Shown here: positions 3,983-25,580 of the stretch, in pieces | Layout: the number at the start of each line of letters is the position of its first letter | How positions within the stretch are numbered: position 1 is the stretch's first letter | NCBI RefSeq assembly: GCF_007018905.1 | Contig: NZ_CP041402.1 | Coordinates: forward strand, 1,042,001 to 1,106,000 | Reading direction: 5' to 3' | DNA length: 64,000 nucleotides | Source of the DNA: Tardiphaga sp. vice304 | GTDB lineage: Bacteria > Pseudomonadota > Alphaproteobacteria > Rhizobiales > Xanthobacteraceae | Notes under the pieces: model-generated | What the model was told of the DNA's origin: nothing | What the model saw: only the letters and a program-made list of their open reading frames with translations | The model's database searches: none | Made by a program: the position numbers and the translations under genes

Positions 3983-4063
3983 GATGCAAAAGTCTGATGG
4001 GGAGCCGGACCGGTTAGGGTGCTTCACGCGGAAATAAAAAAGCTCAATACAGAAAGCCATCTG
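3983..4063 (+). repeat. Dispersed repeat, short form A (copy R1)
   Basis: It reads GATGCAAAAGTCTGATGGGG, then a GGACCGGTTAGGGTGCTTC core, then AGCTCAATACAGAAAGCC. It lacks the 5' G-run of other copies. It starts 10 bases after the DnaA-N-like fragment and is followed 113 bp later by form B copy R2. Confidence 0.8.
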
Positions 4064-4176
4064 TGCACGCTGCTAATGGAGCTAACGGCGGTCCGCACGG
4101 TGAGCTGACTGCCTGGGCTTTGCGTTAGAGACTTCCCGCCCGGCCGAAAGGCACGACCGCGAGCCTCTGGCCTAGC

Positions 4177-4326
4177 GGGGGGGGTGGTCAAAACTCTGAG
4201 GGGTAGGGACATCGGACCGGTTAGGGTGGTCCACATGCAAAAAGTTGTTTTTCAAAAACTAGAAACCCACTTTATAGGCGGAATTTGCGGACGCGCATTT
4301 AACGGAATTAATTTAAAAAGCCACTT
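4177..4326 (+). repeat. Dispersed repeat, long form B (copy R2)
   Basis: Eight G, then TGGTCAAAACTCTGAGGGG, the core CATCGGACCGGTTAGGGTGG, a T/A-rich stretch, CCCACTT, GAATTAAT and the closing AAAAAGCCACTT. It shares its order of blocks with R4, R6 and R7. Confidence 0.85.
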
Positions 4327-4945
4327 CCCCTATGTGGATGCTCCGGCGACCAACAAACTCTCCTGCCGCGAAGCTGCTGTTGATCAGGTGCCCGGCCCAT
4401 ATTGAGCGGACTGGGCACCTGAGTCTTTAGACAGCTCAACCCAGAGCGGAGGGTCAATGGGTGTAGCTGCGCTTATTGCATCCATAAACCGCACCCATGC
4501 ACGCCGGCATCGTCGAGCACGCAACTGGGCTAACTCTGGGTATCTGATTATGCTCGACCTACTCCTGCGGATGCGACTGGCATGCGCGGCAGCAAAATCT
4601 TGAAAGCATTGCTCGGTGAAAAGCGCGTGACTCAGGTCGTTGTACCAACGCGAAGGCCGCTGTCTCCGCAGCCAACTTGCCGATCCGATGGAAGAGGCGT
4701 CAATTTTAATAAAGAATTAACCCTAATTAGCGCTATATCGAACAGCGGTAGCGTCGAGTCAACACCCCAAGACCGCAGCTAATTTCAACATCACGTGGCT
4801 CAAAGCAGAGCTGCCAGTCATCTTCCGGCTGTCGTTCCAGCTGCAGGTTTTTCCGGGCTAACCGAAGACGAGCGGTTACCGACAGTAGTCGGATTGCGAG
4901 CCTTCGTTTCATCTTTTCTTTTCAATAGAAATTTTGGAGTCGACC
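4327..4945. other. Intergenic, no gene supported
   Basis: About 620 bases between repeat R2 and the adhesin gene. A 66-codon frame at 4582-4782 has no recognisable motif and no ribosome site. The stretch just before the adhesin is AT-richer than its surroundings (around 4700-4780) and may hold its promoter, but no clear -35/-10 pair is seen. Confidence 0.5.
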
Positions 4946-7303
4946 GTGGCAATATTTCCGTCGGCGCGCCGCCGCGCGCTGGCAACCAGCATCAGCATCA
5001 CGCTGATTGCGTCCTTGTCGCTTTCAATGGTGAGGCAGACCCTGGCGGCAGGAGGCAATGCCGGTATCCCCAATCCGGCTTCGCCGACGCCTGCGCCGGT
5101 CGTGACAAGCACGGAGATTGCAAATCCCGTTGTCGGTGGTGGAGGTTGCTCCCAGCAATATCTCCCTGGCCTCAGCCGCATTGCCAATCAGGCGCTCACT
5201 GCGAATGACGTAGGCCTTGCGTCTAATGGTGTCGGGGCCGCTGCCGTCGTTGTCAGTTTGACCGCTCAAAGCGCCGCCCAGACGGCCGCAGCCATATCTT
5301 TTGGTGCCATTTCCGGAGGGCTTGCGGAAGCAGCAATTGGCGTCGTTGTGCCGCTTGATGCTGGCGCAGCCGCACCCGGACTTGGAGTCGCCGCTGGTGG
5401 CGCCGCCGCACTTGCCGCGGATTCCACCGCCGCCGTAATTGTGACGGCAGCGTCGGCAGTTGGCGCTGCCGCATCTGTTTCAGGCGTTGCATCCCAGGTC
5501 GCATCCTCAGTGTTTGCGCATCAGGCGCAGGATCTAACGACCTACGTCAACACGCTCGATTCCTGTGATACGAAATTCACCGGCACGGTCACCGTCAAGG
5601 CCGGCGGCGTTAACGTTACCGGCGATTCTGTGTTCGGTGGTAAAGTTGGAGTCGCCGGCGCTCTGAATGTGGCGGGAAACATTGACGCAAGCACCTTTTC
5701 GGCCACGCAAGGCATCTCTGCATTCGGCGGTGCGATTACTATCGGTGATCCCGGTCTGACGACCTATTCGAGCGGTATAACATTGGGTGGCGGTGCGTTC
5801 TCCGGTGCCGGCACAGGTGGAGCCCAGGCTTTCACCGGCGACGTTACCGCCGTCGCGATTGGCAACAACGCGAGCGCGACGCGGATAGGCTCGGTCGCGT
5901 TCGGCACCGACGCTTCAGCGACAGGTCTTAACGCGACTGCAATCGGAACTGGATCGCGGGCGTTCGCAGATACATCGGTCGCCATCGGCTTTGGCGCACT
6001 CGTCTCTGCGGCGGCAGGTGCCGGCTCATTTGCCGGCGGCACGTCCACAGTGATTGACGGGACCGGCGCGATTTCAATCGGCAACCTCAATAATGCCTCA
6101 GGCACAGGTGCCGTCGCCACCGGCGATAATAATACTGCCACGGGCCGGGGCGCGGTCGCGACTGGAAGCAGCAATACAGCGTCAGGACAAGCGGCCATCG
6201 CGCTCGGTCAAGGTTCGCGTGCCACGGGTGCGGGCGCGATTGCCCAGGGCCAGACGGCGCTTGCACTGGCCGACAACGCCATCGCGGTCGGCGGTTCGTC
6301 ACAGGCACTTGCAGGGACATCGGTCGCCATCGGCTTCGGCGCGCTGGTCTCTGCGGCGGCGGGGGCAGGCTCGTTCGCAGGTGGAACGTCGAGCGTTCTT
6401 GAGGGCATCGGCGCAGTTTCGATCGGCAATCTGAACGTGGCCTCCGGCAGCGGCGCCGTCGCGATCGGTGACCCCAATATCGCGACCGGAACGGGCGCGG
6501 TGGGTGTCGGTGCCAACAATACGGCCTTGGGACAGGGTGCGTTCTCTGCCGGCAATCTCAATGTCGCCGCAGGGACGGGCGCACTCGCCATCGGTGACAG
6601 CAATATCGCAATCGGAAACGCGGCAATCGCCCAGGGGCAGGGATCAAGTGCGACGATGAACGGAGCGATTGCATTCGGCCAGACCGCGAATGCCAGCGCG
6701 ACCAATGCCGTCGCGGTCGGTACGCGATCGACCGCTTCGGGGTTTGCCTCATCGGCCGTCGGTCAGAACGCGACCAGCGCGGCGACCAATTCCACTGCGC
6801 TCGGGTCCGGCGCGACCGTTGCGGCCGCTTATGAAAATTCGACAGCGCTTGGGTCCGGTGCGTCGGCTTCGGCCAGCAACCAGGTAACCCTTGGTACATC
6901 CAACCAGACCACGACGGCGCCTGGGATGAATACCGATCTCAGCAGGTCCAGGCAGCAAGGTCTGCTTGGCGTCGTGACGTCGGACAATGCCGGTAACCTA
7001 GCCTCTGACAATGGCGCGCTTTACCGACAGGTGGCCAGCATCAAGGCCGGCGTCGTGATTGGCATGGCGCTTTCGGATCCCAATCTCACGGGCTCGGAAA
7101 GATTCGGCATCAAGATTAACGCCAGCGCATTCGGTGGCGCCTACGGTTACGGCTTCAGCGCCGCTGGCGTTCTCGGCACAGGGCTGCTGTCAAGAGGAGA
7201 CCGGCTGACCCTATCAGGAGCCGGAGGCTGGGCGGAGGCTGACGTATCCGGCTACGGCAAGAGCATGGTAGGCGGCCGCGTCAGCGCGCAATACAGTTGG
7301 TAG
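4946..7303 (+). CDS. Trimeric autotransporter adhesin (YadA-like)
   Basis: A secreted, trimeric outer-membrane adhesin of about 785 residues. A signal peptide (ARRRALATSIS... to QTLAAGG) is followed by an Ala/Gly-rich region, then a long YadA-head region of about 14-residue repeats with AIG, GAxAxG and GSxS motifs at residues 300-650. The C-terminal YadA anchor is about 80 residues and ends in aromatic Trp (VSAQYSW). Two blocks beginning TSVAIGFGALVSAAAGAGSF (around codons 345 and 460) are internal duplicates. No long coiled-coil stalk is evident. The GTG at 4946 is chosen because GGAG lies 6 bases upstream; the TTG at 4934 is the alternative. It likely mediates attachment to surfaces or hosts. 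Confidence 0.9.
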   Translation: MAIFPSARRRALATSISITLIASLSLSMVRQTLAAGGNAGIPNPASPTPAPVVTSTEIANPVVGGGGCSQQYLPGLSRIANQALTANDVGLASNGVGAAAVVVSLTAQSAAQTAAAISFGAISGGLAEAAIGVVVPLDAGAAAPGLGVAAGGAAALAADSTAAVIVTAASAVGAAASVSGVASQVASSVFAHQAQDLTTYVNTLDSCDTKFTGTVTVKAGGVNVTGDSVFGGKVGVAGALNVAGNIDASTFSATQGISAFGGAITIGDPGLTTYSSGITLGGGAFSGAGTGGAQAFTGDVTAVAIGNNASATRIGSVAFGTDASATGLNATAIGTGSRAFADTSVAIGFGALVSAAAGAGSFAGGTSTVIDGTGAISIGNLNNASGTGAVATGDNNTATGRGAVATGSSNTASGQAAIALGQGSRATGAGAIAQGQTALALADNAIAVGGSSQALAGTSVAIGFGALVSAAAGAGSFAGGTSSVLEGIGAVSIGNLNVASGSGAVAIGDPNIATGTGAVGVGANNTALGQGAFSAGNLNVAAGTGALAIGDSNIAIGNAAIAQGQGSSATMNGAIAFGQTANASATNAVAVGTRSTASGFASSAVGQNATSAATNSTALGSGATVAAAYENSTALGSGASASASNQVTLGTSNQTTTAPGMNTDLSRSRQQGLLGVVTSDNAGNLASDNGALYRQVASIKAGVVIGMALSDPNLTGSERFGIKINASAFGGAYGYGFSAAGVLGTGLLSRGDRLTLSGAGGWAEADVSGYGKSMVGGRVSAQYSW

Positions 7304-7863
7304 GTATTCTCCGTTTGCAGACCGGTGAGGAGCAGTGTCGCGCGCGCCCGGGAGGAATTTGCACACGATTGGTGCTCGCCATCGTGCTTGCAGCTAGCGT
7401 TTCGATGCCGAGCTGCACGGCCGCTGCAGAGACGAAAGAGCCTGTCGAGGCCATCGCTCGCACAGCGAAGGCGACAGAGCCGCCGCGGCTATTGGCGCCG
7501 GACAATGACGGACTGGCGATTTTGGCGCACAATTCCCTCATTGCGCTCAACCATGCCAATCTGACCGGCAACTACTCAGTGTTGCGCGATCTCGCCGCAC
7601 CGGGCTTTCAGAAACTCAACTCGACAAAACAGCTCGCCGCGACATTTGCCAACATGCGTACGAACGGCGTGAATCTCAGTCCGATTGTCCTCTACCAGCC
7701 GAAATTCATCGGCAGCCCGGAGTTCGACGGCAAAGGCTTCTTGCACATTCGTGGCTATTACGAAACGCAGCCCTTGCAAGTCCACTTCAGCCTGGTCTTT
7801 ACGCCCGTTGCTGCTGTCTGGCGTCTCTTTGAAATTTCGGTGTGGATGGCAGTACTGCCATGA
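7297..7863 (+). CDS. Secreted NTF2-like hypothetical protein
   Basis: An exported protein with the hydrophobic signal LVLAIVLAASVSMPSC and a mature part of about 140 residues. The region from SLIALNHANLTGNYSVLRDLA to WRLFEISVWM looks like the single-domain NTF2-like proteins seen in rhizobial genomes, whose role is unknown. The Cys after the hydrophobic stretch is a poor lipobox. The start is uncertain. The longest frame begins at a TTG (7297) and overlaps the adhesin stop. TTG 7369, with GGAGGA at 7351, would give a shorter signal peptide. The tight spacing suggests co-transcription with the adhesin. Confidence 0.65.
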   Translation: MVGILRLQTGEEQCRARPGGICTRLVLAIVLAASVSMPSCTAAAETKEPVEAIARTAKATEPPRLLAPDNDGLAILAHNSLIALNHANLTGNYSVLRDLAAPGFQKLNSTKQLAATFANMRTNGVNLSPIVLYQPKFIGSPEFDGKGFLHIRGYYETQPLQVHFSLVFTPVAAVWRLFEISVWMAVLP

Positions 7864-7957
7864 TTGGTCTGCAGTGATCCTTACATCAGCATTGCCGCGC
7901 TGACGCGAGCCCGTGGCCACCGGCAAGCGCGCGATTGTACCGACGCCAGTAAACCCG

Positions 7958-8638
7958 CTACGGACAGCTGGTCTTGAGAACGTCGATATCGAATACGGGT
8001 CGAGTTTGTAAATCCGTGTAGACGTATCGAAAGGAGCCGCCGATATCCAAGATCTTGCGCGTCTCGGCATTGCCGCAGACATTCCTGACGACGGACTGGC
8101 GCAACCTGTCTTTCGTCGCATCGTCAAATTTGCTGAAATCCGTAGTGACGATATTCTCAAAGATAAGTTGCGCGTTTAAATTGCGCACACCCGTCAGGAT
8201 GGTAGTGGCGTCTATTTTTCTCGGCAGACCGGATCGAATCTTATCCAGAGCGCCGGCGATTTCGCCCTCGATACCGGGCGTGGCCATGGTCGACGAAGCC
8301 GTGGATTGAACATTCCGCACGCGCTGGAAAAAGATCAGTCCGAACGCGCCAAACGCCATGGCGGCTGCTAAGACAATAATGCCAAGAATGATCCTGTGAG
8401 GCAGCGCACGTTTCGGCCTCGCCAGCGTCGGGGGAACCGTCGATACAATGGGCGGGGAAAATTCATAAAGAAGGCGAATTTCCCTGACGCTTCCGGCCGT
8501 TTGCCATTGGGTGAACCCTGCGCGCCAAACCATCAGCCCTTGCCAATTTGTCGCCCCGTCCAGCAATACTTTCAATTCCGTCAGTCCGAGCGGACCCATG
8601 GTCGTTTCGCCCGCTGCGTAGTACCATTTGTCAAGCAT
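7958..8638 (-). CDS. GYF_2-domain membrane protein
   Basis: A 226-residue protein. The N-terminal GYF_2 (DUF4339) domain has WYYAAGETTMGPLGLTEL, then GLMVWRAGFTQWQTA at residues 5-60. A transmembrane helix (IILGIIVLAAAMAFGAFGLI) lies at about residues 85-108, followed by an extracytoplasmic domain with a Cys near the end. GYF_2 domains bind Pro-rich or protein partners; the function here is unknown. The start at 8638 is chosen because the domain begins there; the 33 upstream codons of the longer frame are not conserved in type. It is convergent with the NTF2-like gene. Confidence 0.75.
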   Translation of the reverse strand: MLDKWYYAAGETTMGPLGLTELKVLLDGATNWQGLMVWRAGFTQWQTAGSVREIRLLYEFSPPIVSTVPPTLARPKRALPHRIILGIIVLAAAMAFGAFGLIFFQRVRNVQSTASSTMATPGIEGEIAGALDKIRSGLPRKIDATTILTGVRNLNAQLIFENIVTTDFSKFDDATKDRLRQSVVRNVCGNAETRKILDIGGSFRYVYTDLQTRPVFDIDVLKTSCP

Positions 8639-8914
8639 CGAGTCGCCAATTTGTAGAGCCGATCGGCTTGAGGAGCGGAGCGCACCCGCGCGGCAATGTT
8701 GAAAAGCAATTGTGCTGTCTAGTGCCGTCCATTGCAAGCCTGCAGACTTGTAACCACGCAGACGACGTGATGTTACCTCGTACCAGGCGACGGTGGTGCA
8801 GCGCGGTCAGTCTCATGGCGGTGGAGCGCCAGCTTTCCGACGGGATTTGCTGAGTCTTGCGGCCAGCTAATGACCGCTGCTGGCAAAGCCGACTTTCAAT
8901 GCAAGGCGGAGCCA

Positions 8915-9005
8915 GGGGGTATCAAAACTCTGATGGGATAGGCCACCGGACCGGTTACGGTGGTTCATGCATAAAGAAACGAAAGCTCAATAGAGAAAGC
9001 CATCA
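8915..9005 (+). repeat. Dispersed repeat, short form A (copy R3)
   Basis: Five G, then TATCAAAACTCTGATGGG, the core CCGGACCGGTTACGGTGGTTC and AAAGCTCAATAGAGAAAGCC. It matches R1 and R5. It is followed 118 bp later by form B copy R4. Confidence 0.85.
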
Positions 9006-9123
9006 GGGCGGATGCGGCCGGCGCGAAGTCGTGGCGGCGACGCATGAGGGCACGGCTCCGCGGTCCGCCAGATGCACAGGAGAAGCTGGTGCTCTTGCTC
9101 TTTGCCGCGCCGAAGGCGACGTT

Positions 9124-9284
9124 GGGGGGGGGGGGGCGAAAACTCTAGGGGGCAGGGGCATCGGACCGGTTAGGGTGTTTCGCGCGCAAAAAGTCGGTCT
9201 TTTTAAAACTGAAAGCCCACTTGAGACGGAAAGCGCGGCGCCGGTTATTTTGTTGAAATTCGCAGAATTAATACTAAAAGCCAC
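9124..9284 (+). repeat. Dispersed repeat, long form B (copy R4)
   Basis: A run of 13 G leads into CGAAAACTCTAGGGGG, the core CATCGGACCGGTTAGGGTG, AAAGCCCACTTGAG, GAATTAAT and AAAAGCCACTT. The middle is about 10 bp longer than in other B copies. The repeat ends beside the broken YCII gene. Confidence 0.87.
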
Positions 9285-9301
9285 TTCTGTCGGTGTAGGC
9301 A

Positions 9302-9524
9302 AATGATCCGTCGAAAATATGGCGCTTGCCGTTCTTCATCCGGATCGTCGTACCGACCTCAGGTGGGGGGATCCCATTCCCGATTGCCATCGCGCCGCTT
9401 TGGGGGATCGCACCCATATAGTCAGTCCACCCGCCCAATGGGTTTGCGTCTCTGCCGGGACGGTGCGTTTGCCCATTTGAGAGGCGGCTTCATTGAACAG
9501 CAGGATGTGGTGCATCAGTCGCAT
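9302..9524 (-). pseudogene. YCII-related (DGPF) protein remnant, frameshifted and truncated
   Basis: Read on the minus strand, MRLMHHILLFNEAA to ETQTHW is in one frame. After a shift the other frame continues with YMGAIPQSGAMAIGNGIPPP, then VGTTIRMKNGKRHIFDGSFA. That is the order of a YCII-domain (DGPF) protein. The usual continuation after DGPFA (ETKEQLGG) is missing because the sequence ends at the edge of repeat R4. The start at 9524 has AGGGAAGG just upstream. It is a clear pseudogene with a frameshift near 9440 and loss of the 3' third. Confidence 0.7.
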
Positions 9525-9827
9525 CCTTCCCTGTATTCGGATGCCGGACAGCATGCCGAACAATCAGCGACCCTAGTCGCTCAATCCCGTGTGCGGCGAA
9601 CCGAAGCGGTTTCGACCGCTTATTTCACGTCGCAGTCCAGGATCGTGCCCTTTTCCACGACAATTAACGCGGATCCACCACGCCGCCGTGGCTGAGGAAG
9701 ACCACGCGGTGACCGGTCAAGCTGCTGTGACCGATATCGATCTTAGCCCGTTTACCGGTTTTTCAGCTGTTCGCCACTACTCTAATTGCTGGTTCGCAAG
9801 TATCAGAAATCGGTGGGCGGAGGGGAT
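9525..9827. other. Intergenic with possible decayed coding DNA
   Basis: Short minus-strand stretches (such as VVFLSHGGVVDP and VEKGTILDCDVK) look protein-like but lie in different frames. No family was recognised. The end of the region holds the GGAGGGG ribosome site of the EAL gene at 9819-9825. Confidence 0.4.
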
Positions 9828-10601
9828 ATGGGCGGTAAGTGCGCAGGATGCGGTGAAGAAGTCCCGCTGCCTTTCGAATTCAAGATGGCTTTTCAGCCGA
9901 TCGTCGACCTCAAGGCCAAACGCGTGTGGGGCTATGAGGCGCTGGTGCGCGGCCCAAACGGTGAGTCTGCCTTTTCGGTGCTCGATCAGGTGACCGACGA
10001 GATTTGGTACCGCTTCGACCAGACGGCGCGCGTTCTGGCGATCGAGACCGCTGGTGTGTTGTTCAAGCAGCCGCATTTGCGGCTGTCTATCAACTTCATG
10101 CCGAACGCCGTCTACGAGCCTGCGGCGTGTATTCAGAAGTCGCTGGCCGCGGCCAGGCGGGTCGACTTTCCGCACCAGAACCTGATGTTCGAGTTCACCG
10201 AGAACGAGCGGATGAGCGACGTAGCGCATGTGCAGAGGATCGTTGAGGCGTATAGGAAATTCGGCTTCATGACTGCGCTGGACGATTTCGGCGCTGGCTA
10301 TGCCGGCCTTGGCCTGCTGGCGCGGCTGCAGACCGACCTGATCAAGATCGACATGGAACTGCTGCGCAACATTCATCTCAGCCGCGCCAAGCAGGCGATC
10401 GTCGCCGGCATTGTCGGGATTGCGCGCGAACTCGACATCATCGTGCTCGCCGAGGGTGTTGAGAGCGCCGCCGAGCTCACCGTGCTGCGCGCTGCCGGCA
10501 TTTCGCTGTTCCAGGGCTATCATTTCGCCAAGCCTGCGTTGATGGCGCTGCCCGATGTACCGTTGCTGGATCAGCCCATCCTGATCCGTAGCGTAAGTTA
10601 G
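9828..10601 (+). CDS. Stand-alone EAL-domain cyclic-di-GMP phosphodiesterase
   Basis: A 257-residue cytosolic EAL protein that should cleave c-di-GMP. The key motifs are present: YEALVRG, the Asn in LSINFMPN, FEFTENE, DDFGAGYAG, the Lys of LIKID, AEGVES and QGYHF. The protein starts with a short Cys-rich leader, KCAGCGEE, that could bind metal or sense redox. It has no membrane segment and no GGDEF partner in the same protein. The ATG at 9828 has GGAGGGG just upstream; the longer frame from a TTG at 9786 is less likely. An IS3 element lies about 45 bp downstream. Confidence 0.92.
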   Translation: MGGKCAGCGEEVPLPFEFKMAFQPIVDLKAKRVWGYEALVRGPNGESAFSVLDQVTDEIWYRFDQTARVLAIETAGVLFKQPHLRLSINFMPNAVYEPAACIQKSLAAARRVDFPHQNLMFEFTENERMSDVAHVQRIVEAYRKFGFMTALDDFGAGYAGLGLLARLQTDLIKIDMELLRNIHLSRAKQAIVAGIVGIARELDIIVLAEGVESAAELTVLRAAGISLFQGYHFAKPALMALPDVPLLDQPILIRSVS

Positions 10602-10710
10602 AGAGACTTTTCCTTTTGCGGAGCCTAGAGCCGGCCCCGGAAATCTGCACAGGACGATAAGTGGAGTTTCTGCCTGACAGCAGCGATAATCGCCGCGCAC
10701 AGGAGAGACC

Positions 10711-11019
10711 ATGACGAGACGACCGCGCCGGAACCACACACCGGGCTTCAAGGCCAAGGTGGCACTGGCCGCCATCAAGGGCGATCGCACGATCACCCAA
10801 CTGGCCGAGCATTTTGACGTTCACCCGAACCAGATCACGACCTGGAAGGCACAACTGGAGGGCGCCGCTTCCGGGGTGTTCGGGCCGGGAGGCACGGCGC
10901 CGACGGAGCCGGCCGTCGATGTCAAATCGCTGCACGCCAAGATCGGAGAGCTGACCCTGGAGAACGATTTTTTAGAAGGCGCGCTCACCAAGGCGGGATT
11001 GCTGAGCGCAAGACGATGA
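10711..11019 (+). CDS. IS3-A orfA, helix-turn-helix protein
   Basis: A 102-residue HTH_Tnp_1 protein: RNHTPGFKAKVALAAI, then TITQLAEHFDVHPNQITTWK, then a Leu-rich coiled coil ending LTLENDFLEGAL. It binds the IS ends. Its stop overlaps the orfB start as ATGA, so orfB is translated by coupling or as a frameshift fusion. Confidence 0.93.
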   Translation: MTRRPRRNHTPGFKAKVALAAIKGDRTITQLAEHFDVHPNQITTWKAQLEGAASGVFGPGGTAPTEPAVDVKSLHAKIGELTLENDFLEGALTKAGLLSARR

Positions 11020-11843
11020 TCGACCGTAATCACGATCTGTCGATCACAAAGCAGACGGAGGTTTTGAAGATCAGCCGCGGCAGTGTCTATTATCTGCCGC
11101 GTCCGGTGTCCGCCACCGATCTCGCGATCATGCAGCGCCTGGATCGGCTGCATCTGGAGTTTCCCTTCGCCGGGTCGCGGATGTTGCGCGGCCTGCTGGC
11201 TGCCGAGGGGTGCCAGATCGGCCGCCGGCATGTGAAGACGCTGATGAAGCGAATGGGGATAGAGGCAATCTATCGGCGTCCGCGCACCACCAAACCCGAG
11301 CCCGGCCACAAGATCTATCCGTATCTGCTGCGCGGCATGGAAATTACGCGGCCGAACCATGTCTGGGCGACGGACATCACCTACATTCCGATGGCACGTG
11401 GCTTCGTCTATCTCGCCGTAGTGCTCGACTGGGCGACCCGCCGGGTACTGTCATGGCGGCTATCGATCACCATGGAAGCCTCGTTCTGCATCGAGACGCT
11501 GCAGGATGCTTTGGCGCGTCACGGCAAGCCGGAGATATTCAACACTGACCAGGGTTCGCAGTTCACCGGCCAGGCCTTCACCGGCCTGCTTGCCGACAAC
11601 GGCATCGCCATCAGCATGGATGGCAAAGGCGCCTGCCGGGACAACGTGTTCGTCGAACGATTGTGGCGCAGCGTCAAATACGAGGAAGTCTATCTGCGGG
11701 CCTACGACAGCGTCGACGAGGCGCGACAATCGATCGGTCGGTATCTGGACTTTTACAATGGCCGAAGGCCGCATTCGAGTCTTGACGGGCGAACACCCGA
11801 TCAGGCCTACTTCAACCCGCTGCCCATCCGCATGGCAGCCTAA
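11016..11843 (+). CDS. IS3-A orfB, DDE transposase
   Basis: A 275-residue IS3-type transposase with an N-terminal HTH_21 segment (FPFAGSRMLRGLL) and an rve integrase core. The catalytic residues are visible: Asp in WATDITYIP, Asp in NTDQGSQFT and Glu in NVFVERLWRSVKYEE. The end, YNGRRPHSSLDGRTP, is typical. It is intact, so the element may be active. Confidence 0.94.
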   Translation: MIDRNHDLSITKQTEVLKISRGSVYYLPRPVSATDLAIMQRLDRLHLEFPFAGSRMLRGLLAAEGCQIGRRHVKTLMKRMGIEAIYRRPRTTKPEPGHKIYPYLLRGMEITRPNHVWATDITYIPMARGFVYLAVVLDWATRRVLSWRLSITMEASFCIETLQDALARHGKPEIFNTDQGSQFTGQAFTGLLADNGIAISMDGKGACRDNVFVERLWRSVKYEEVYLRAYDSVDEARQSIGRYLDFYNGRRPHSSLDGRTPDQAYFNPLPIRMAA

Positions 11844-12268: not shown

Positions 12269-12403
12269 TGCTGACTCGTCCAGTAGCCTTCGCATGGCGC
12301 CAGCAGGCTCGTCAAATGAGCGGCGTGCAGCAGGGTCGATCAAAACGAATCAGCTCGAGTCTTTGCAGCGGCGCCGGCGCTGCCCCGACTTACATTGCGC
12401 AAC

Positions 12404-12496
12404 GGGGGGGACCAAAAGTCTGGGGTCTTGAGGGGGCGGACCGGTTAGGGTGCTTCGCACGGAAAGAAACAGAAGCTCAATACAGAAAGCCATCTG
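12404..12496 (+). repeat. Dispersed repeat, short form A (copy R5)
   Basis: Seven G, ACCAAAAGTCTGGGG, the core GGACCGGTTAGGGTGCTTCG, then GAAGCTCAATACAGAAAGCC and ATCTGTG. It is closest to R1. No form B copy follows it. Confidence 0.85.
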
Positions 12497-12520
12497 TGTG
12501 CCATGGCAAGCGACAGCAAT

Positions 12521-15493: not shown

Positions 15494-17841
<2,348 letters not shown>

Positions 17842-17980
17842 TTGTCGCTCCACGACAATCAACTCCACGACACGCAATTATCACTTGCGTTATCGTCAGG
17901 CCGCGACAATCATCCCCACGCCGCGACCGCTAAATTGCCATCCTGATTGTCGCGCTTCCCATCCAGATTGACGCGCTACA
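17842..17980. repeat. IS21-B right end with multiple terminal repeats
   Basis: The motif ATTGTCGCG or its complement CGCGACAAT occurs at least five times in about 140 bp after istB, in both orientations, like the multiple transposase-binding repeats known for IS21. The same motif forms the free palindrome at 23277-23316. Confidence 0.75.
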
Positions 17981-18248
17981 ACGGCCTCGATAAAAAGTCG
18001 GTTGTCCTTGCCGCTGCGGCCGGGATCGCTCGGCTTGCCGAGACAAAGCGGCTCCATCTTCGCCCATTGGGCGTCAGTCAAAACGAATCGGTCCATCCAC
18101 AGCTTGAATCACAACCAAGCCCGGGTGGGAATCCTGAATCCCAACAGGCCCTAGTTGACGGAATTAGTCGTCATAATGAATTAGCGTGCGGCCCGGCGAC
18201 TTGAGCTGCATCAGGAATGCTAGGCGCTCTTGGTGTCCGCTCGGGGAT

Positions 18249-18397
18249 GGGGGGGTGGTGAAAACTCACAGGGTTAGGGGCATCGGACCAGTTAGGGTAG
18301 TTCACACGCGAAAAGTTGGTTTTTTTAATCTCAAAAGCCCACTTGCTAAGCGGAATCTGCAACCGACCATTCACCGAAATTAATGCAAAAGCCACCT
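18249..18397 (+). repeat. Dispersed repeat, long form B (copy R6)
   Basis: Seven G, TGGTGAAAACTCACAGGG, the core CATCGGACCAGTTAGGGTAG, a T-run, AAAAGCCCACTTGC, CGGAATCTGC, GAAATTAAT and AAAAGCCACC. It sits in the roughly 260 bp between two IS5 elements. Confidence 0.87.
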
Positions 18398-18415
18398 GAG
18401 CGGGAAACGGCCCTA

Positions 18416-19260
18416 GAGCGCGTTGACATTTTTCATCGTGTCCAAATATGCGCGCTGACGATTGATATCATCGACATGAATGCTCTAGGTGTTTCTTCGT
18501 AGCGCGTTGCGATGCGCCTGAAGTGTTTGAGATTTAGGAAGAAGCTCTCGATGAGATTTCGCTCGCAATTTAACGCGTGGTGGCGTTGAACCTGTGGCGA
18601 CGTTTTTCTGGGCGGAATGACTGCGATAGCGTCTCGCTTGATGATGGCGTCCCGCAGCGCTTTCGAGACGACACCTTTGTCGCCGAGGACATGCCCGGCC
18701 GGTAGATCGGCGATGAGAGCCGCGGCCGCGGTGTAATCGCTCGCTTGCCCCGGCGAGAGAATGAAGCGCAGAGGATTGCCCACCGCATCGACCACCGCGT
18801 GTATCTTGGTGGTCAGCGCGCCGCGTGATCAGCCAATCGCACGAGCTTCAGGCCCCCCTTTCTGCCCGCCGCATGTTGGTGCGCCCGGACAATAGTCGAG
18901 TCGATCATGATGTATTCAAAGTCCGGAGCGTCGCTCATGGCGGCGAACAACCGGTCCCACACGCCGCTTTTGGACCATCGCGAGAAGCGCACGAACACGC
19001 TGTTAGCCTTGCCAAAAACGTCCGGCAGATCGCGCCATGGCGATCCGGTCCGGGCCAGCCAGAGAACCGCTTCAACGCAAAGACAGTTGTCAGTTCCGCT
19101 GCGACTCGGATCTCCCGCCTTACCCGGCAAGTGCAGAGCTATCCGTTCCCATTGATCGTCCCGTAGAGACAGGCGAACCACCGGCATTCAACGCTCCCAT
19201 CCGAAAAGGAGCTTGAATCAGATTTGCGAGTCCGTGAGAATGCTGAATGTCAACGCGCTC
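18416..19260 (-). mobile_element. IS5-family element IS5-C
   Basis: An 845-bp element with terminal repeats GAGCGCGTTGACATT at 18416 and, inverted, ending at 19260. Flanking CTA and TTA fit a TA target site. It holds one two-frame transposase gene. Confidence 0.87.
18433..19187 (-). pseudogene. IS5-C transposase, two frames with an extra nonsense codon
   Basis: The first frame (19187-18813) holds MPVVRLSLRDDQWERIALHL and TGSPWRDLPDVFG to IMIDSTIVRAHQHAAG. After AGAAAGGGGGG, the usual slippage site, the second frame carries ALTTKIHAVVDAVGNPLRF to NLIESFFLNLKHFRRIATRY. In that second frame a TGA at 18829-18831 replaces the codon between AIG and SRG, which is Arg in the sister element IS5-B. 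So even a correct frameshift would end early and the copy is probably dead. The first-frame start at 19187 has GGAG upstream. Confidence 0.8.
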
Positions 19261-19330
19261 TTAAGGCCAATGGCGACATTTTGAATGAGGCAACGAAACG
19301 GCCTTCGGCAACAATCTCGGATGCGGCAAT

Positions 19331-19363
19331 ACAGATTCTCATCTTGATTGTCGCGCCATAACA
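19331..19363. repeat. Solo IS21-B-like terminal motif
   Basis: Read on the minus strand it is TGTTATGGCGCGACAATCAA followed by GATGAGAATCT, close to the IS21-B left end. It stands alone between IS5-C and the IS5 copy at 19376. Confidence 0.6.
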
Positions 19364-19375
19364 GCATGCATCTCA

Positions 19376-20310
19376 GAGGCTGACTGAAAAAGAAGCTGAG
19401 TGATTTCAGCCAGTTGTGATTCCTTCGGATTTGCGAAGATTCGAGGGAGAGCACGATGGTCTGGACTGAAATCACCCGCCGACACTATAGGCGGGCGAGC
19501 TTGCGATATGAAAGCGATACGACGGATGCCGAGTGGTTTGTGATGGAGCCGCTTCTGCCGCCTGCTTCGGCGCTCGGTCGCCCGCGTGCGACAGATATGC
19601 GAACGGTGATGGATGCGATCCTGTATATTGCGTCGACCGGCTGCCAATGGCGGCAGTTGCCCAAGGATTTCCCGCCCTACTCGACGGTGCAGGGCTATTT
19701 CTACGCGTGGTCGCGCGGCGGACTGTTTGCGTCGCTGAACTACACGCTCGTGATGGCCTCGCGCGAGGCGGCTGGCCGAGAGGCGAGCCCAACGGCCGGA
19801 GTGATTGACAGCCAGTCGGTGAAAACCACGGAAAGCGGCGGCCCCCGGGGCTATGATGCAGGTAAGAAAATCAAGGGCCGCAAGCGCCACATCGTCACCG
19901 ACACGCAAGGAAACTTGGTCGGGCTGGTCGTGCACGAAGCCAGCATTCAGGACCGTGATGGTGCCCCGTGCGTTCTTGCTTCGATACGTTATCGCTATCC
20001 GTGGCTGCGCCATATTTTTGCCGATGGTGGCTATGCCGGAGATAAGCTGCGTCAAGCTTTGAAGCGCATCGGCAATTGGACGATAGAAATCATAAAACGA
20101 TCCGACAGGGAGCAGGGCTTCGAAATCCTACCGCGCCGATGGGTCGTCGAACGAACGTTCGGATGGCTCGGTCGCTGCCGCAGATTGGCAAAGGACTTCG
20201 AGACCACAATCGCCAGCGCCGTTGCCTGGGCGTTCGTCGCTCACATTCGCGTCCTTATAAGACGGCTTGCAAAAGCCTGAAATCAAACGAATTCATTATG
20301 AGTCAGACTC
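19376..20310 (+). mobile_element. IS5-family element (copy 2), complete
   Basis: A 935-bp element. The left end is GAGGCTGACTGAAAAAG and the right end ATGAGTCAGACTC. A 3-bp TCA lies just outside both ends. Its right 334 bases are identical to the copy at the window start, and the copy at 24164-25098 is a diverged relative of the same length. Confidence 0.92.
19456..20280 (+). CDS. IS5-family transposase (copy 2)
   Basis: 274 residues, full length. The DUF4096-type N-terminus (SDTTDAEWFVMEPLLPPAS) is followed by GCQWRQLPKDFPPYSTV and the DDE core: Asp in GVIDSQSVKTTESGG, Asp in IFADGGYAGDK and Glu in RRWVVERTFGWLGR. It is intact and, given the identity of two copies, probably recently active. 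Confidence 0.95.
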   Translation: MVWTEITRRHYRRASLRYESDTTDAEWFVMEPLLPPASALGRPRATDMRTVMDAILYIASTGCQWRQLPKDFPPYSTVQGYFYAWSRGGLFASLNYTLVMASREAAGREASPTAGVIDSQSVKTTESGGPRGYDAGKKIKGRKRHIVTDTQGNLVGLVVHEASIQDRDGAPCVLASIRYRYPWLRHIFADGGYAGDKLRQALKRIGNWTIEIIKRSDREQGFEILPRRWVVERTFGWLGRCRRLAKDFETTIASAVAWAFVAHIRVLIRRLAKA

Positions 20311-20582
20311 TCAGGCTTGGGCCGCTCTTTGTAGCCGAAAGATCGGCTCTGGGGAGTTGCGAGTTAGCGCGCGGTCTGGACCGGACTTTCGACAAGGACG
20401 TGTCGGGCGGCAGGCAGTTTTTAATTGACCGTGGTCCCAAAACGGTTCAGGCACGAAGAAGTTGCGGTATTTTGTTATATGCAGAGCCGTCTGAGCCGTC
20501 CGCACTGCGGAGATCACCCAGGGCCTGATTATGACGTTCGCCGTTTTCAAACACTGACTAAACGGATGGAACCCCCTGGCCC

Positions 20583-23237
20583 ATGGCTGAACTCGGCTTT
20601 ACGACAGCGTCAGTTGACGTGACCAACTGCGACCGGGAGCCGATACACATCCCGGGCGCGATCCTGCCGCACGGCGCCATGCTGGTGCTGGACGCGGACA
20701 CGCTGGAAATAATTCAGGCGGCCGGCGACACGTCCCGCCTACTGGGCGTTCCCCTTGGGGAGTTGCTCGGACAGTCGGCGGCTACGCTGTTCCGCCCCGA
20801 CCAGATCGAGAACCTGCGAGGGCTGGCGGCCGCACTCGATCTCGCAAAGCCACGCCACCTCCTTGATCCGCAGATGCGCGTGATTACCGGTCTACCGCTC
20901 GACGCGAGCCTGCATCGCAGCGCCGGGTCGCTTGTACTCGAGTTCGAGGCCGCCCATCCCAGCGACCGGTTCGCGGCAGACCCGCTCGCCGGCGTTGAGG
21001 AAATGGTTCGCGGGTTCGATGAGTCGTCCTCGCTCAAGGCGTTGTGCCAGCTTGCCGCCGACCGGGTGCGGGACGTCGCTCGCTACGACCGCGTTCTGGT
21101 CTACCGGTTCATGCACGATGACTCGGGATGGGTCATCGCCGAGAGTATGGAGCCGCATCTCGAACCATTCCTGGGCCTCCACTACCCGGCCGCCGACATC
21201 CCCCAGCAGGCCCGAGCCCTGTATGTGAAGAACTGGCTGCGGCTGATCACCCAGGTCGACTATGACTCGGCGCCCTTGATCCCCGTGGTCAATCCACGCA
21301 CGGGGGAGCCGCTGGACATGAGCCAGGCGATCCTGCGCGATGTGTCGCCTATCCATCGTCAATACCTCCGGAACATGGGCATCGACGCCTCAATGTCGAT
21401 ATCGATCATTCGCGGTGACAAGCTCTGGGGGCTCATTGCCTGCCACCACTACAGTCCGCGCATCCTGCCACGGCACTTGCGCGCCATATGCGAGCTGTTT
21501 GGCTCCATGTTTTCGCTCCAGCTCGAGGTTCGCGAGAAGGGAGAGCAGTTCGGTGAACGGTTGGCGAGCCGCATGATACTGCAGAACCTCATGCTCAACC
21601 TGGCCAGCGCAGACGATTACGCGGTCGGATTAACGAGGGAATCACCCAACCTGCTCGACTACATTCATTGCGGCCTGCTCTCCGCCGACGGAACGCGCCA
21701 GGGGGGCGTCGCGGTAAGCGTCAAAGGACAATTAACGTTTCTGGGAACGACACCCAGTCAGGCTCAAATCCTGTCCCTTGTGGACTGGTTGAATCCCTAT
21801 GTCTCGAAGAATGACGGCGTGTTCTCGACCGATTGCCTGAGCGAGCTCTGGCCGCCTGCGAGTGCCTTCGCGGATGTCGCCTCTGGCGTGCTGGTTATCT
21901 CGGTGACAGAGGAACTGTCCGACTTCATCATCTGGTTCCGACCGGAACTCGTTGGCACATCCGAATGGGCCGGCGAGCCGACGAAGCTGGTCGAGAGTGG
22001 CCCCAACGGCGACCAGCTTCGTCCGCGCAAGTCCTTCGAGGTCTGGAAGGAAACGGTTTGCGGACATTGCCTTCCATGGACGCCCGCCGATCTCGATGCG
22101 GCGTTCGATCTGCGGGTCTCCTTGCTCCACGTGGTCTTGCGCCGGATCAACACGGCTGCGCTGGTACGCAAGCGGGCGGCTGAACGCGACAAAGTCCTAA
22201 TGGCCGAACTAGACCATCGCGTGAAGAACACTATCGCCAACATCCAGGCCCTCGTTATCCAATCGAGTCGCAACGCAGAATCGTTGACAGGCTTCGTCAA
22301 AGGATTAGAGGGCCGCATCCTGGCGATGGCCAAGGCCCACAGCCTGCTTTCCGAGAGTCGCTGGGAGGGCGTGTCGATCGCCAGGCTGCTTCGCGAGGAG
22401 CTTAATCACTATGCCACTAGACATCGGGCGGTGAGCTTTGACGGGGTCGACATCGTACTGACGCCGAAGTCGGCGCTGTCGCTGTCGCTGGCGGTTCATG
22501 AGCTGGCGACCAACGCGGCCAAATACGGCGCGTTCACCGAAACCTACGGACATGTGGCGGTGGACTGGCGGCGGGCCAACGACGGTAGTGTCGAATTGTC
22601 CTGGACCGAGACGGGAGGACCGCTCGTCGAGCAGCCCAAGCGTCGCGGCTTCGGCACGACGCTCATCGAACGTGCGCTGGCGATGGAAACCGGCGGCCAT
22701 TCGATTGTGCAGTACCTGCGCGGCGGCGTCGTCTGCAATATCTTGCTGCCTGCATCGTCAGTTTCTGAATCCGATGCGAACGTAGTAGATGGCGCGAGTG
22801 TACAAGCGCAACGCGTCCAGATGGCGGAAGTGCCGGCTGCGTCACCTCCGGAAATCTTCCGGATCCTTGTGGTCGAGGATTCGTTTCTTCTGATCATGAC
22901 GATCCAAGCCATGCTCGACGACCTTGGCTGGGTGGCGGTCGGACCGGCGACACGGAAGGCCGAGGCGATCGCGCTGGCGCAGTTGGAGACGTTCGACGCA
23001 GCCCTCCTTGACGTTAATCTTGACGGTGAGACATCTTGGGACGTTGCAGCGATCCTGATGAGCCGCGGCATTCCGTTCGTGTTCGGCACCGCATATGACG
23101 TGTCCAGCGTGCTGCCCGACCACCTCGCGGGAAGTGCTGTCATAGCCAAGCCTTACGTCATTAGGGATGTCGAACAACGACTTAGGGAAGTGATAGCTAT
23201 CAAAAGACGCCTGACAACCGCAGTTTGTTTGGCTTAA
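20583..23237 (+). CDS. bphP: Bacteriophytochrome hybrid kinase (PAS-GAF-PHY-HWE-REC)
   Basis: An 884-residue red/far-red photoreceptor kinase. Cys16 in VTNCDREPIHIPG is in place to bind biliverdin. The GAF domain has YPAADIPQQAR (a PASDIP variant) and the chromophore His region in CHHYSPR. The PHY tongue carries PRKSFEVW. The kinase is HWE/HisKA_2 type (ELDHRVKNTIANIQALV; N-box HELATNAAKYGAF). A C-terminal receiver has VVEDSF, phospho-Asp in ALLDVNLDGE and Lys in IAKPY. No heme oxygenase gene (bphO) lies nearby, so biliverdin must be made elsewhere. The start ATG 20583 lacks a strong ribosome site. The gene is flanked by an IS5 copy 272 bp upstream and a palindrome 40 bp downstream. Confidence 0.93.
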   Translation: MAELGFTTASVDVTNCDREPIHIPGAILPHGAMLVLDADTLEIIQAAGDTSRLLGVPLGELLGQSAATLFRPDQIENLRGLAAALDLAKPRHLLDPQMRVITGLPLDASLHRSAGSLVLEFEAAHPSDRFAADPLAGVEEMVRGFDESSSLKALCQLAADRVRDVARYDRVLVYRFMHDDSGWVIAESMEPHLEPFLGLHYPAADIPQQARALYVKNWLRLITQVDYDSAPLIPVVNPRTGEPLDMSQAILRDVSPIHRQYLRNMGIDASMSISIIRGDKLWGLIACHHYSPRILPRHLRAICELFGSMFSLQLEVREKGEQFGERLASRMILQNLMLNLASADDYAVGLTRESPNLLDYIHCGLLSADGTRQGGVAVSVKGQLTFLGTTPSQAQILSLVDWLNPYVSKNDGVFSTDCLSELWPPASAFADVASGVLVISVTEELSDFIIWFRPELVGTSEWAGEPTKLVESGPNGDQLRPRKSFEVWKETVCGHCLPWTPADLDAAFDLRVSLLHVVLRRINTAALVRKRAAERDKVLMAELDHRVKNTIANIQALVIQSSRNAESLTGFVKGLEGRILAMAKAHSLLSESRWEGVSIARLLREELNHYATRHRAVSFDGVDIVLTPKSALSLSLAVHELATNAAKYGAFTETYGHVAVDWRRANDGSVELSWTETGGPLVEQPKRRGFGTTLIERALAMETGGHSIVQYLRGGVVCNILLPASSVSESDANVVDGASVQAQRVQMAEVPAASPPEIFRILVVEDSFLLIMTIQAMLDDLGWVAVGPATRKAEAIALAQLETFDAALLDVNLDGETSWDVAAILMSRGIPFVFGTAYDVSSVLPDHLAGSAVIAKPYVIRDVEQRLREVIAIKRRLTTAVCLA

Positions 23238-23276
23238 CCCGCAGACCGCACCAAGTCGATGCTGCCCTAATTATAA

Positions 23277-23316
23277 CGCGACAACCAAGATGAGAATCCT
23301 CATCTTGGTTGTCGCG
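23277..23316. repeat. 18-bp perfect inverted repeat after bphP, made of the IS21-B end motif
   Basis: CGCGACAACCAAGATGAG and its exact complement flank a 4-nt loop (AATC). The arm equals the IS21-B terminal repeat with two changes. It begins 40 bases after the bphP stop and could end its transcript although no T-tract follows. Confidence 0.85.
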
Positions 23317-23387
23317 CGGCACCATTCACGAGATTTTCAGTCTGCTGAAAACTGAATTTTGCAACCCTTCGATTCCTCCGTAACCCT

Positions 23388-23618
23388 CGATGATAATGGC
23401 ACTCGATGCTCGCGTCCCGCTTTCATTCGCACTCCCGGCACAATCCAAATCCTCTGGTTCAAATCTATTTCAGACCATTTGGCGCCGATGACCTCGCCAG
23501 TTCGGGCGGCGGTCAAGATCGCAAATTCAAGCGCCTGAGCTGAAGCTCCGTCTTGCAAGCGAAGTGCATTCATGAATGATGCTAGCTCCGCAAATGGTAG
23601 AGCTGCATGATGCTTAAC
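23388..23618 (-). pseudogene. Tyrosine-recombinase (phage/island integrase) fragment
   Basis: About 77 residues of a P4-type integrase catalytic domain: HHAALPFAELASFMNAL, ALEFAILTAARTGEVIGAKW (with the first catalytic Arg) and IDLNQRIWIVPG to KAGREHRVPLSS. The N-terminal domains and the HxxR...Tyr half are absent. It is a relic of an integrated element and joins directly to the FdhF-like fragment. Confidence 0.8.
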
Positions 23619-23619
23619 G

Positions 23620-24068
23620 CGCTGACCGCTGCTCCTGCACGTTCGAGTGGCCGCGCACCGGCGAAATCCCGGCGCCTTCGCGTCCGATGTTGCCTCGGAG
23701 CAGCAGCAGGTTGCCGAACATCGTGATGTTCTGGAAGCCACGGACGTGCTGGGTCAGACCCATGCCGTAGATCCCAATGACCCGCTCGGCTTTGACATAG
23801 ACTAGGCGGCGCGTTCAATGTCCTGACGAGACAGCCCCGACGCCACTTCGATCTCTTCCCAGGACGTGTCTCGCACTTTGGCCTCGAATTCAGCGAGGCC
23901 GTCGGTGTGCTGCGCGATGAACGCAACATCCAGCACGCATTTGCCAAGCTGTTGGGCCGCGTCGTTGGCGGCGAACACGTGCTTGCACCTGCCGAGCAGC
24001 ACGGCGATATCGCCGCCGACCTTGACCTGACGGTAAAGTCCGCACGCTTTTGGTGCTGGTCTGACCAA
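23620..24068 (-). pseudogene. FdhF/YdeP-type molybdopterin oxidoreductase fragment
   Basis: The piece VKVGGDIAVLLGRCKHVF to [21 protein letters not shown] ends at a stop at 23802. In the next frame the match goes on with [20 protein letters not shown], then [20 protein letters not shown] and [10 protein letters not shown]. This is the middle of an oxidoreductase alpha (molybdopterin) subunit. Both ends are missing and there is one frameshift. Confidence 0.7.
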
Positions 24069-24163
24069 TCCGTAGTAGCTTAGATTAAAATGACTCGCTT
24101 TTCTGGATGTGAGTCCTACGATGAGTAATCATCGACCGGAACCCGGCATTTATCGGTGACTGA

Positions 24164-25098
24164 GAGCCGGACTGAAAAAGAAGCTGAGTGATTTCAGCCA
24201 GTTGTGATTCCTTCGGATTTGCGAAGATTCGAGGGAGAGCACGATGGTCTGGACTGAAATCACTCGTCGACATTATAGACGCGAGGGCTTGCGGTATGAA
24301 AGCGATACGACGGATGCAGAGTGGTTTGTGATGGAGCCGCTTCTGCCGCCCGCTTCAGCGCTCGGGCGTCCACGTGCAACAGACATGCGAACGGTGATAG
24401 ATGCGATCCTCTACATTGCGTCCACCGGTTGCCAATGGCGGCAGTTGCCCAAGGACTTCCCACCCTACTCGACGGTGCAGGGCTATTTCTACGCGTGGTC
24501 GCGTGGTGGAATTTTTGCCTCGCTGAACTACACGCTTGTCATGGCGGCACGCGAGGCTGCTGGCAGAGAGGCGAGCCCGACGGCCGGAGTGATTGACAGC
24601 CAGTCGGTGAAAACCACGGAAAGCGGCGGCCCACGGGGCTTTGACGCAGGCAAGAAGATCAAGGGCCGCAAGCGCCACATCGTCACCGACACCCAAGGCA
24701 ATCTGGTCGGGCTCGTCGTGCACGAAGCCAGCATTCAAGATCGCGATGGCGCCCCGTGTGTCCTTGCTTCGATCCGCTCGCGCTATCCTTGGCTGCGCCA
24801 TATCTTTGCCGATGGTGGCTATGCCGGAGATAAATTGCGCAAGGCGTTGAAGCGCATCGGCGAATGGACGGTAGAAATCATCAAACGTTCCGACACCGCG
24901 CAGGGCTTCGAAGTTCTTCCCCGCAGATGGGTCGTCGAACGTACTTTCTCGTGGCTCGGTCGCTGTCGCAGACTGGCAAAGGATTTCGAAGCGACAATCG
25001 CCAGCGCCGTTGCCTGGGCGCTCGTAGCTCACATTCGCATCCTTACAAGACGACTCGTAAGAGCTTGACATCAAACATAATCATTATGAGTCGGACTC
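24164..25098 (+). mobile_element. IS5-family element (copy 3, diverged)
   Basis: 935 bp with ends GAGCCGGACTGAAAAAG and ATGAGTCGGACTC. It is clearly related to the copy at 19376 but differs at many positions. Flanking bases (CTGA and TTAG) do not form an exact duplication. Confidence 0.9.
24244..25068 (+). CDS. IS5-family transposase (copy 3)
   Basis: 274 residues, with the same domain order and catalytic residues as copy 2 (GVIDSQSVKTTESGG, IFADGGYAGDK, RRWVVERTFSWLG). About 20-25 residues differ, mainly in the C-terminal third (EWTVEIIKRSDTAQGFEV). Full length and probably functional. Confidence 0.95.
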   Translation: MVWTEITRRHYRREGLRYESDTTDAEWFVMEPLLPPASALGRPRATDMRTVIDAILYIASTGCQWRQLPKDFPPYSTVQGYFYAWSRGGIFASLNYTLVMAAREAAGREASPTAGVIDSQSVKTTESGGPRGFDAGKKIKGRKRHIVTDTQGNLVGLVVHEASIQDRDGAPCVLASIRSRYPWLRHIFADGGYAGDKLRKALKRIGEWTVEIIKRSDTAQGFEVLPRRWVVERTFSWLGRCRRLAKDFEATIASAVAWALVAHIRILTRRLVRA

Positions 25099-25120
25099 TT
25101 AGAGAAAATGGCATCATTGA

Positions 25121-25270
25121 CTATCGACGTGGCCGCGTCCGAACTTTGAAGTTGAAGTAGGTCGCCGCGCTGATCCCTGCCTTCCGGCAGATGTCCGCCA
25201 TCGGCATGCCATCAGCGCCCTGTTTCAAAATGAACGCCTTCTGGGCCTCCGAAAACTTCGATGCCTTCAT
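25121..25270 (-). pseudogene. IS3-family orfA fragment
   Basis: 49 codons starting MKASKFSEAQKAFILKQ, then GMPMADICRKAGISAATYFN, the helix-turn-helix of an IS3 orfA. A GGAGCGGAG ribosome site precedes it. The frame leaves the family after KVRTRP at the edge of the IS5 copy, and no orfB follows. Confidence 0.75.
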
Positions 25271-25435
25271 CGTTCTCCGCTCCTTGAGCGGACAAGTCTT
25301 GCATCACATGGATATTAAAAGTGCCCATCTAGACGACACTCGCCTTGCCTCCGGTTAGTCCTTTCATAACATCTGATGGGCGAACGACGGCGTTCGGCGA
25401 CGGCTGTATTTCGATTGCAGGTTGCTGACAGTTCA

Positions 25436-25580
25436 GGGGGGTATCAAAATTTGCGCCGGGAGGGGCTCGGACCAGTTAGGGTGATCCGCACGTAAAAATT
25501 GCTTTTTAATTAGAAAAGCCTATTTGCCGGGTGGAATCCGTGACTGACCATTCAGCGTAACTAATACAAAAAAAGCCACC
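25436..25580 (+). repeat. Dispersed repeat, long form B (copy R7)
   Basis: Six G, TATCAAAATTTGCGCCGGG, the core CTCGGACCAGTTAGGGTGAT, AGAAAAGCCTATTTGCC, GGAATCCG, ACTAATAC and AAAAAGCCACC. It is the most diverged B copy and the last in the window. Confidence 0.82.

Follow-up and report, generated by a model that had tools for sequence, protein, structure and literature searches.

What is a short intergenic repeat doing in seven copies, all in one orientation, within a single stretch of a bacterial chromosome? The stretch in question (hereafter the window, all 64,000 nucleotides of it) comes from Tardiphaga sp. vice304, contig NZ_CP041402.1, positions 1,042,001 to 1,106,000. The first-pass annotation had offered two origins for these repeats, relics of a cos-like phage packaging region or a small non-autonomous element. 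From the analyses described below, the repeats are very probably cohesive-end sites (cos) of the HK97 type. The first proposal thus stands as far as the cos part is concerned, and the source of the sites is better read as satellite-like islands than as whole prophages.

Seven repeats with the layout of a cos site

Using the 14-mer core GGACCGGTTAGGGT with up to two mismatches, we obtained seven matches in the window, all on the plus strand (starting at 4007, 4214, 8948, 9163, 12438, 18285 and 25469), against 0.15 expected by chance. Seven matches were reached in none of 100 dinucleotide shuffles of the window, and the plus-strand copies described earlier are therefore real. The profile R1 (97 positions, made from 28 aligned copies: 24 from this genome, three from genomes of the same genus and one from a viral contig) recovered all seven with E-values of 1.5e-14 to 2.1e-25; its training set includes six of the seven, and training members match by construction. 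One extra partial tail match in the window, at 9255-9286, had an E-value of 0.22. The copies are as follows.

3986..4064, plus strand: cos-like copy 1, no G-run; core 4007-4020; R1 E 1.5e-14
4177..4272, plus strand: cos-like copy 2, G8 from 4177; core 4214-4227; R1 E 3.9e-23 from 4180
8915..9006, plus strand: cos-like copy 3, G5; core 8948-8961 with one mismatch; R1 E 6e-20
9124..9224, plus strand: cos-like copy 4, G13 from 9124; core 9163-9176; R1 E 2.1e-25 from 9129
12404..12497, plus strand: cos-like copy 5, G7; core 12438-12451; R1 E 1.7e-20
18249..18346, plus strand: cos-like copy 6, G7; core 18285-18298, GGACCAG; R1 E 4.8e-23 from 18251
25436..25527, plus strand: cos-like copy 7, G6; core 25469-25482, GGACCAG; R1 E 4.6e-18

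The order of blocks given in the first-pass annotation was confirmed, as were its G-runs of 5-13 (8, 5, 13, 7, 7 and 6 in copies 2-7) and the lack of a G-run in the first copy. Details of the core needed correction: the copy at 8915 reads TTACGGT, and the cores at 18285 and 25469 read GGACCAG.

A loose pattern brought in five viral contigs. In four of them the series of G-run, AAAACTCT and GGACCGG lies between the HNH nuclease gene and the terminase genes, which bears out the link that the first-pass annotation drew to sequence upstream of genes for the small terminase subunit (TerS); in the fifth (L025) it comes directly after TerS. Pfam searches on three of the four contigs gave HNH in 3/3, the large terminase subunit (TerL) in 3/3 and Terminase_4 in 2/3. 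The small-subunit candidate of the third contig matched a PHROG of unknown function and, weakly, a TerS PHROG; the fourth contig is 91-99% alike to the third in the proteins of the HNH/terminase region.

Physical genome ends fall in the motif in two relatives, VarioGold and HK97. The Variovorax phage VarioGold has at its right end G8, TGGTCAAAACCCT and, further on, CGATCGGTTC, the latter annotated as the right cohesive end, and at its left end CCCAAATTTTTACGCACGC; HNH is annotated near the right end and TerS near the left. The VarioGold paper gives PhageTerm-predicted 10-nt 3' cohesive ends, CGATCGGTTC, and a single cos site in the prophage. HK97 ends in G9, ATCAAATCT and, further on, GACCGCCGCCAAA; a 10-nt 3' overhang and HNH-stimulated cleavage are described for it in PMC11331095. 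Measured from the start of the G-run, the physical end comes at 51 nt in HK97, at 50 nt in VarioGold and at 53 nt in the Gordonia phage Polly. For the six window copies that have a G-run, coordinate arithmetic gives 47-53 nt from the same starting point to where the 14-mer ends. Polly has its G-run at the same distance but without the AAA box. The record of VIT_AJPSC ends 37 nt after the start of its G-run, with GGAC just after the record start.

We therefore assign the repeats to the HK97-type cos sites with high confidence, on the grounds of layout and spacing. They share with the cos sites of HK97 and VarioGold the G-run, the TCAAA-type box, a spacer of ~16-20 nt, ACCG, the 3' part and the ~50 nt from the G-run to the end, and HNH and terminase genes adjoin the prophage versions. 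They differ from those sites in that most copies lack terminase genes, in their number (dozens in this genome) and in the TTAGGGT that follows GGACC(G/A)G, present in 25 of the 30 full-core copies. Adjacency to terminase or HNH genes, which the earlier annotation had raised, holds for the viral contigs and prophages; near the seven window copies no TerS or TerL match was found.

TerS, TerL and an HNH nuclease, together an HK97-type packaging machine, would recognise such copies and cut them to leave 10-nt cohesive ends, the cut falling within the GGACCGGTTAGGGT core or just where it ends. Two alignments are possible for this predicted cut. Likeness to CGATCGGTTC would place it after GGACCGGTTA; the other alignment places it after GGACCGGTTAGGGT and is favoured by the spacings (ACCG+8 and G-run) seen in HK97 and VarioGold.

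Distribution of the motif and the elements that carry it

In the complete genome (one contig, 5,788,709 bases) R1 gave 38 matches at E<=0.01, a number that may be a lower bound, as 150 of the 556 first-look candidates were scored. The matches form two clusters, each in one orientation: cluster A with seven at 1045986-1067527, all on the plus strand and within the window, and cluster B with 31 at 5590791-5715647, all on the minus strand. A genome-wide search for the core with up to one mismatch gave 29 places against 7 for a reversed control; the match at 270460, outside both clusters, is probably due to chance. A search of related genomes, as the earlier annotation had proposed, yielded matches in 6 of the 18 genomes of the genus sample (this genome included), in 22 of 391 in the family sample (6 of 47 genera) and in 5 of 297 in the order sample. 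Comparison with two relatives revealed a copy-free conserved block at 5596755-5611343 and no synteny around the copies. Similarly, a search of relatives with the window flanks gave short repeats and domain-level matches only, with no syntenic locus. In a genome of another genus of the same family (G358, loci L074-L077 at 5.77-6.02 Mb), seven copies occur in two clusters; marker genes are absent from all four fetched regions, as in much of this window.

The intergenic placement noted earlier was upheld: none of the seven window copies lies inside the crude gene models, copy 1 standing directly 3' of a gene remnant (3712-3972), and neither does any of the 23 listed cluster-B cores. Such placement would also be expected of a leader or small-RNA sequence tied to the neighbouring genes. 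We consider this explanation extremely improbable, given that window positions 1-30000 had no Rfam match at gathering thresholds, that the flanking genes vary between copies and that just a third of the same-genus genomes have a match.

Outside this genome the family search gave 35 places in 21 genomes. Of these places, 25 (in 16 genomes) fall in the 20 regions, each of 7-20 kb, that we fetched. Six of the regions have a module that comprises a recombinase-like open reading frame (ORF) of ~150 amino acids, a serine recombinase gene and DUF2924 and that is divergent from the motif-side genes. The module faces away from a phage-type replication initiator, and no TerL was found in these six. Three regions have the HTH_36 initiator-like gene only, and two are prophages with HNH, TerL and portal genes (L084 and L086). 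For the ten places outside the fetched regions, ParB/methylase or HNH matches came from short loci of G169, G116 and G329, with none in the remaining short loci. Pfam or PHROGs tests on L006, L009 and L080 each showed a recombinase of the serine type. The initiator matches HTH_36, plus DnaA_N in L025, as well as phage replication-initiation PHROGs. A search starting from the TerS of L025 gave eight viral loci, including L129 on the same contig; six carry the recombinase module and one TerL. In L085, recombinase, initiator, motifs, ParB/methylase and TerS are present and the 7 kb after TerS have no TerL match.

Could these be ordinary prophages in decay, whose cos regions outlasted the rest and never passed through a satellite stage? 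In L084 and L086 the motif does lie between HNH and TerL, and in cluster B a TerS remnant with stop codons comes right after one copy. Against this, compact elements with recombinase, initiator and cos recur without any TerL or portal match in their 15-20 kb regions (L069, L072, L079, L080 and L085). Their tested proteins (ten from L080 and L085, seven from L069, L072 and L079) matched no structural PHROGs family except the TerS of L085, and L080 has no capsid, tail or TerL gene among its seven main ORFs by PHROGs. Decay of whole prophages alone is therefore unlikely as the source. We conclude that the carriers are probably integrated islands resembling phage satellites, judging from their gene content.

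Of 11 elements inspected, four (L006, L008, L025 and L080) have an att-like core, TGTTATGGAA, with at most one mismatch, at a distance of 42-77 bp past the recombinase-like ORF. In L069 it lies 1.2 kb from this ORF, diverged forms were seen by eye in L072, L079 and L132, and no such core was found in L003, L085 and L088. L080 is bounded by att-like sites at 6112 (one mismatch) and 14772 (exact 12-mer), which gives an element of ~8.7 kb. Exact or one-mismatch sites in the Tardiphaga genome lie at 5724907, 5708829, 5693789, 5655946 and 5620071; the one-mismatch matches at window position 23725 and at 5690824 (both GATGTTCTGGAA) look like chance. L008 has one tRNA-Ser gene, away from any att site. 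The right flank of L079 turned out to be a widespread two-gene cassette and was rejected as a guide to the element boundary. Between two att-like sites of L079 (12901-17739) lies a unit with a BrxHI/SngC-like helicase and no recombinase match, possibly a stacked island. L033 has an exact att 12-mer (1624-1635, minus strand) shortly beyond a weak motif; the 12-mer lies close to the 3' end of an ORF named ParB-like by eye and is possibly a natural insertion target.

Defence-type genes accompany the four elements tested: McrBC inside L080, type III restriction beside L072 and L079, and SIR2-like and SMC-like ATPase genes beside L069. In L079 and L069 these genes lie beyond the att-like site and so may be part of neighbouring islands.

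Phage-inducible chromosomal islands (PICIs) in the narrow sense have a tyrosine integrase, alpA/stl regulation, pri-rep and rpp. The islands described here resemble the cos-type PICIs (EcCICFT073, SaPIbov4 and SaPIbov5) in being small and integrated, in having cos and in lacking a packaging motor of their own, with TerS in some relatives. They differ from them in several respects: the recombinase is of the serine type and comes with DUF2924 and the small recombinase-like ORF, the initiator is HTH_36/DnaA_N, some elements have two or three dissimilar cos motifs, and one genome holds dozens of copies. In phage WO, DUF2924 is paired with the WO serine recombinase. By description, DUF2924 is common to that integration module and ours, while host, size and cargo differ. 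DUF2924 is also mentioned in three Wolbachia papers.

Cluster B holds three recombinase modules and an HTH_36 gene followed by several copies, and together with the TerS remnant these fit the satellite anatomy. The islands would thus combine the serine recombinase module and the phage-type initiator with at least one cos site; some also have ParB/methylase and TerS, but TerL was not detected. A helper phage would supply the remaining functions, and transfer would depend on it. Most islands in this genome would have decayed and been broken up by insertion sequence (IS) elements, leaving the cos sites as the most durable part. The motif could serve as a DNA signature for satellites in this family of soil bacteria, which gene-based searches may miss.

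Several motifs per element and mosaic halves

A strict general expression of the motif gave 15 sense and 0 antisense matches in 71,228 bases of 22 regions, against 0.24 expected from letter shuffles; the regions had been picked around known matches, and part of the 15 reflects this selection. Twelve of the 22 regions gave no match to the strict expression, and some of these hold profile matches. L085 has three dissimilar cos motifs, starting at 10132, 10234 and 10462. In L129 one motif is 5' of ParB/methylase and another 3' of TerS, in L135 one of the two motifs was found by profile only, and second motifs occur in L069 (degenerate) and L079 (seen by eye). Satellites with two cos sites are already known: according to PMC6092414 and PMC6739421, both sites of EcCICFT073 are reported functional, cos1 being essential and cos2 not, and two putative sites are given for SaPIbov4.

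We then compared the two halves of the copies, using 25 of the 30 full-core copies (five without a clear 5' half were dropped, and eight partial matches left out). The similarity matrices of the 3' segments correlate with one another (r 0.43, 0.45 and 0.48, p 0.0005), and those of the two 5' segments weakly (r 0.19, p 0.0065). In the six comparisons across the core, r stays close to zero throughout (-0.08 to 0.07, p 0.15-0.92), with the weak 5' signal limiting their power. One copy, at 5688127, combines the 5' half of 5687824 (100%) with the 3' half of 5688430 (100%) at a spacing of 303 bp, as unequal exchange at the core would give. Mosaic halves fit both cohesive-end joining and homologous exchange, and copies may have multiplied through tandem duplication and joining of halves at the core.

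These comparisons bear on the small non-autonomous mobile element, inserting as a unit, that the earlier annotation had given as its other option. Many dispersed copies exist and units of ~200-300 bp recur, as such an element would produce. This origin is disfavoured, and in our view very unlikely: the 5' and 3' halves are uncorrelated between copies, while segments within the 3' half correlate and those within the 5' half do so weakly. Besides, the motif is laid out like a phage cos region, and within a cluster all matches have the same orientation.

Returning to the satellite-like islands, we raise tentatively the idea that stacked cos sites are a working feature: satellites might gather dissimilar cos sites suited to several helpers, and cut ends might rejoin across copies and so shuffle their halves. 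If true, a region of ~125 kb in this strain, with ~30 cos sites in the same orientation, could offer a helper many points from which to begin packaging segments of the chromosome. The finding may bear on why some satellite islands keep more than one cos site, and elements with two or three dissimilar sites, along with a genome of 38 copies in which the halves on either side of the predicted cohesive-end core are uncorrelated, make the question testable. We found no report of this cos family or of arrays this large in the literature searched, which included phage satellites, cos and Rhizobiales.

The window neighbourhood and the search for a helper

The genes around the window copies were inspected for traces of such an element. 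The features are listed below.

1..340, plus strand: right part of an IS copy (the whole copy at genome 1041396-1042340) with 99.8% copies elsewhere in the genome; outside the element
1305..3595, minus strand: IS21-type istB/istA insertion (PF01695, PF22483), inside the decayed element and foreign to it
3712-3972, plus strand: remnant of a satellite-type replication initiator, C-terminal DnaA_N part, an 86-amino-acid ORF directly 5' of copy 1
25362..25373, minus strand: att-like site GATGTTATGAAA, weak; differs at one position from the att core of related elements and lies ~60 bp 5' of copy 7

The remnant at 3712-3972 matches PF11638 (DnaA_N) with an E-value of 6e-8 (32.7 bits, cut-off 24.6). 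It aligns with the C-terminal part of initiators of related elements (tblastn, E 3.8e-5 and 0.003) and has no PHROGs match. The block of remnant plus motif is repeated in cluster B (1045707-1046058 versus 5626301-5626654, 74%). A diverged serine recombinase (49%) lies to the left of the window, at about -2.7 to -0.6 kb, and the IS copy and the IS21-type element stand between this off-window recombinase module and the initiator remnant. There are no tRNA genes in the window. Cluster A is assigned with less certainty, since the att core is a short sequence and none was seen next to the diverged recombinase.

For a possible helper, TerS and TerL searches of the genus gave 18 distinct loci, one of them the cluster-B TerS remnant among the copies. 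Motif-bearing terminase loci are L145/L155, L147/L152, L159 and L161; three of these four have an HNH match and none has the TTAGGGT core. In L146/L154 a related motif is on the opposite strand. No candidate helper phage with a matching core was found among the viral contigs and the genus terminase loci. A search of phage DNA with copy 2 returned ten records (best E 0.6), rejected as chance, and a plasmid search with the same copy gave no match.

Several observations weigh against reading the repeats as cos sites of satellite-like islands. PY2, a phage with HNH and TerS, ends without the layout of G-run and box. By the strict expression, a related sense motif stands 5' of the terminase genes in only 4 of the 18 genus loci, the host's own prophage (3518331-3519267) has no motif 5' of its terminase genes, and strict-core scans matched 0 viral contigs, with no phage found that has both the exact core and a terminase. 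Nine of the 20 fetched regions, four of them from G358, have no phage or satellite marker. Several viral contigs stop soon after TerS, which weakens the claim of TerL loss there, and the search for capsid and tail genes, made with PHROGs, covered selected proteins only. No empty site was found in the two relatives compared, which are only 78-81% identical at opgGH. Copies 3-7 of the window have no marker matches nearby, their neighbours being IS elements and signalling genes, and the search beside the diverged recombinase gave no att core. Alignment ends inside the core are modestly enriched (29 of 253 versus ~16 expected, by our own arithmetic); the enrichment being only mild, they were therefore not used as main evidence.

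Some further features of the window were observed. Between copies 2 and 3 (5027-7303, plus strand) lies a gene for a 758-amino-acid protein with YadA head repeats. At 36083-36202 (minus strand) a stretch of 40 amino acids is 77.5% identical to part of the off-window diverged serine recombinase. A ParB/N6-N4 methylase gene, 35% like the satellite one, and two DUF5681 genes occupy 45369-47808 (minus strand), perhaps as another phage-derived remnant. Positions 48001-52000 show a marked AT skew (up to 0.237) and high G+C compared to most of the window.

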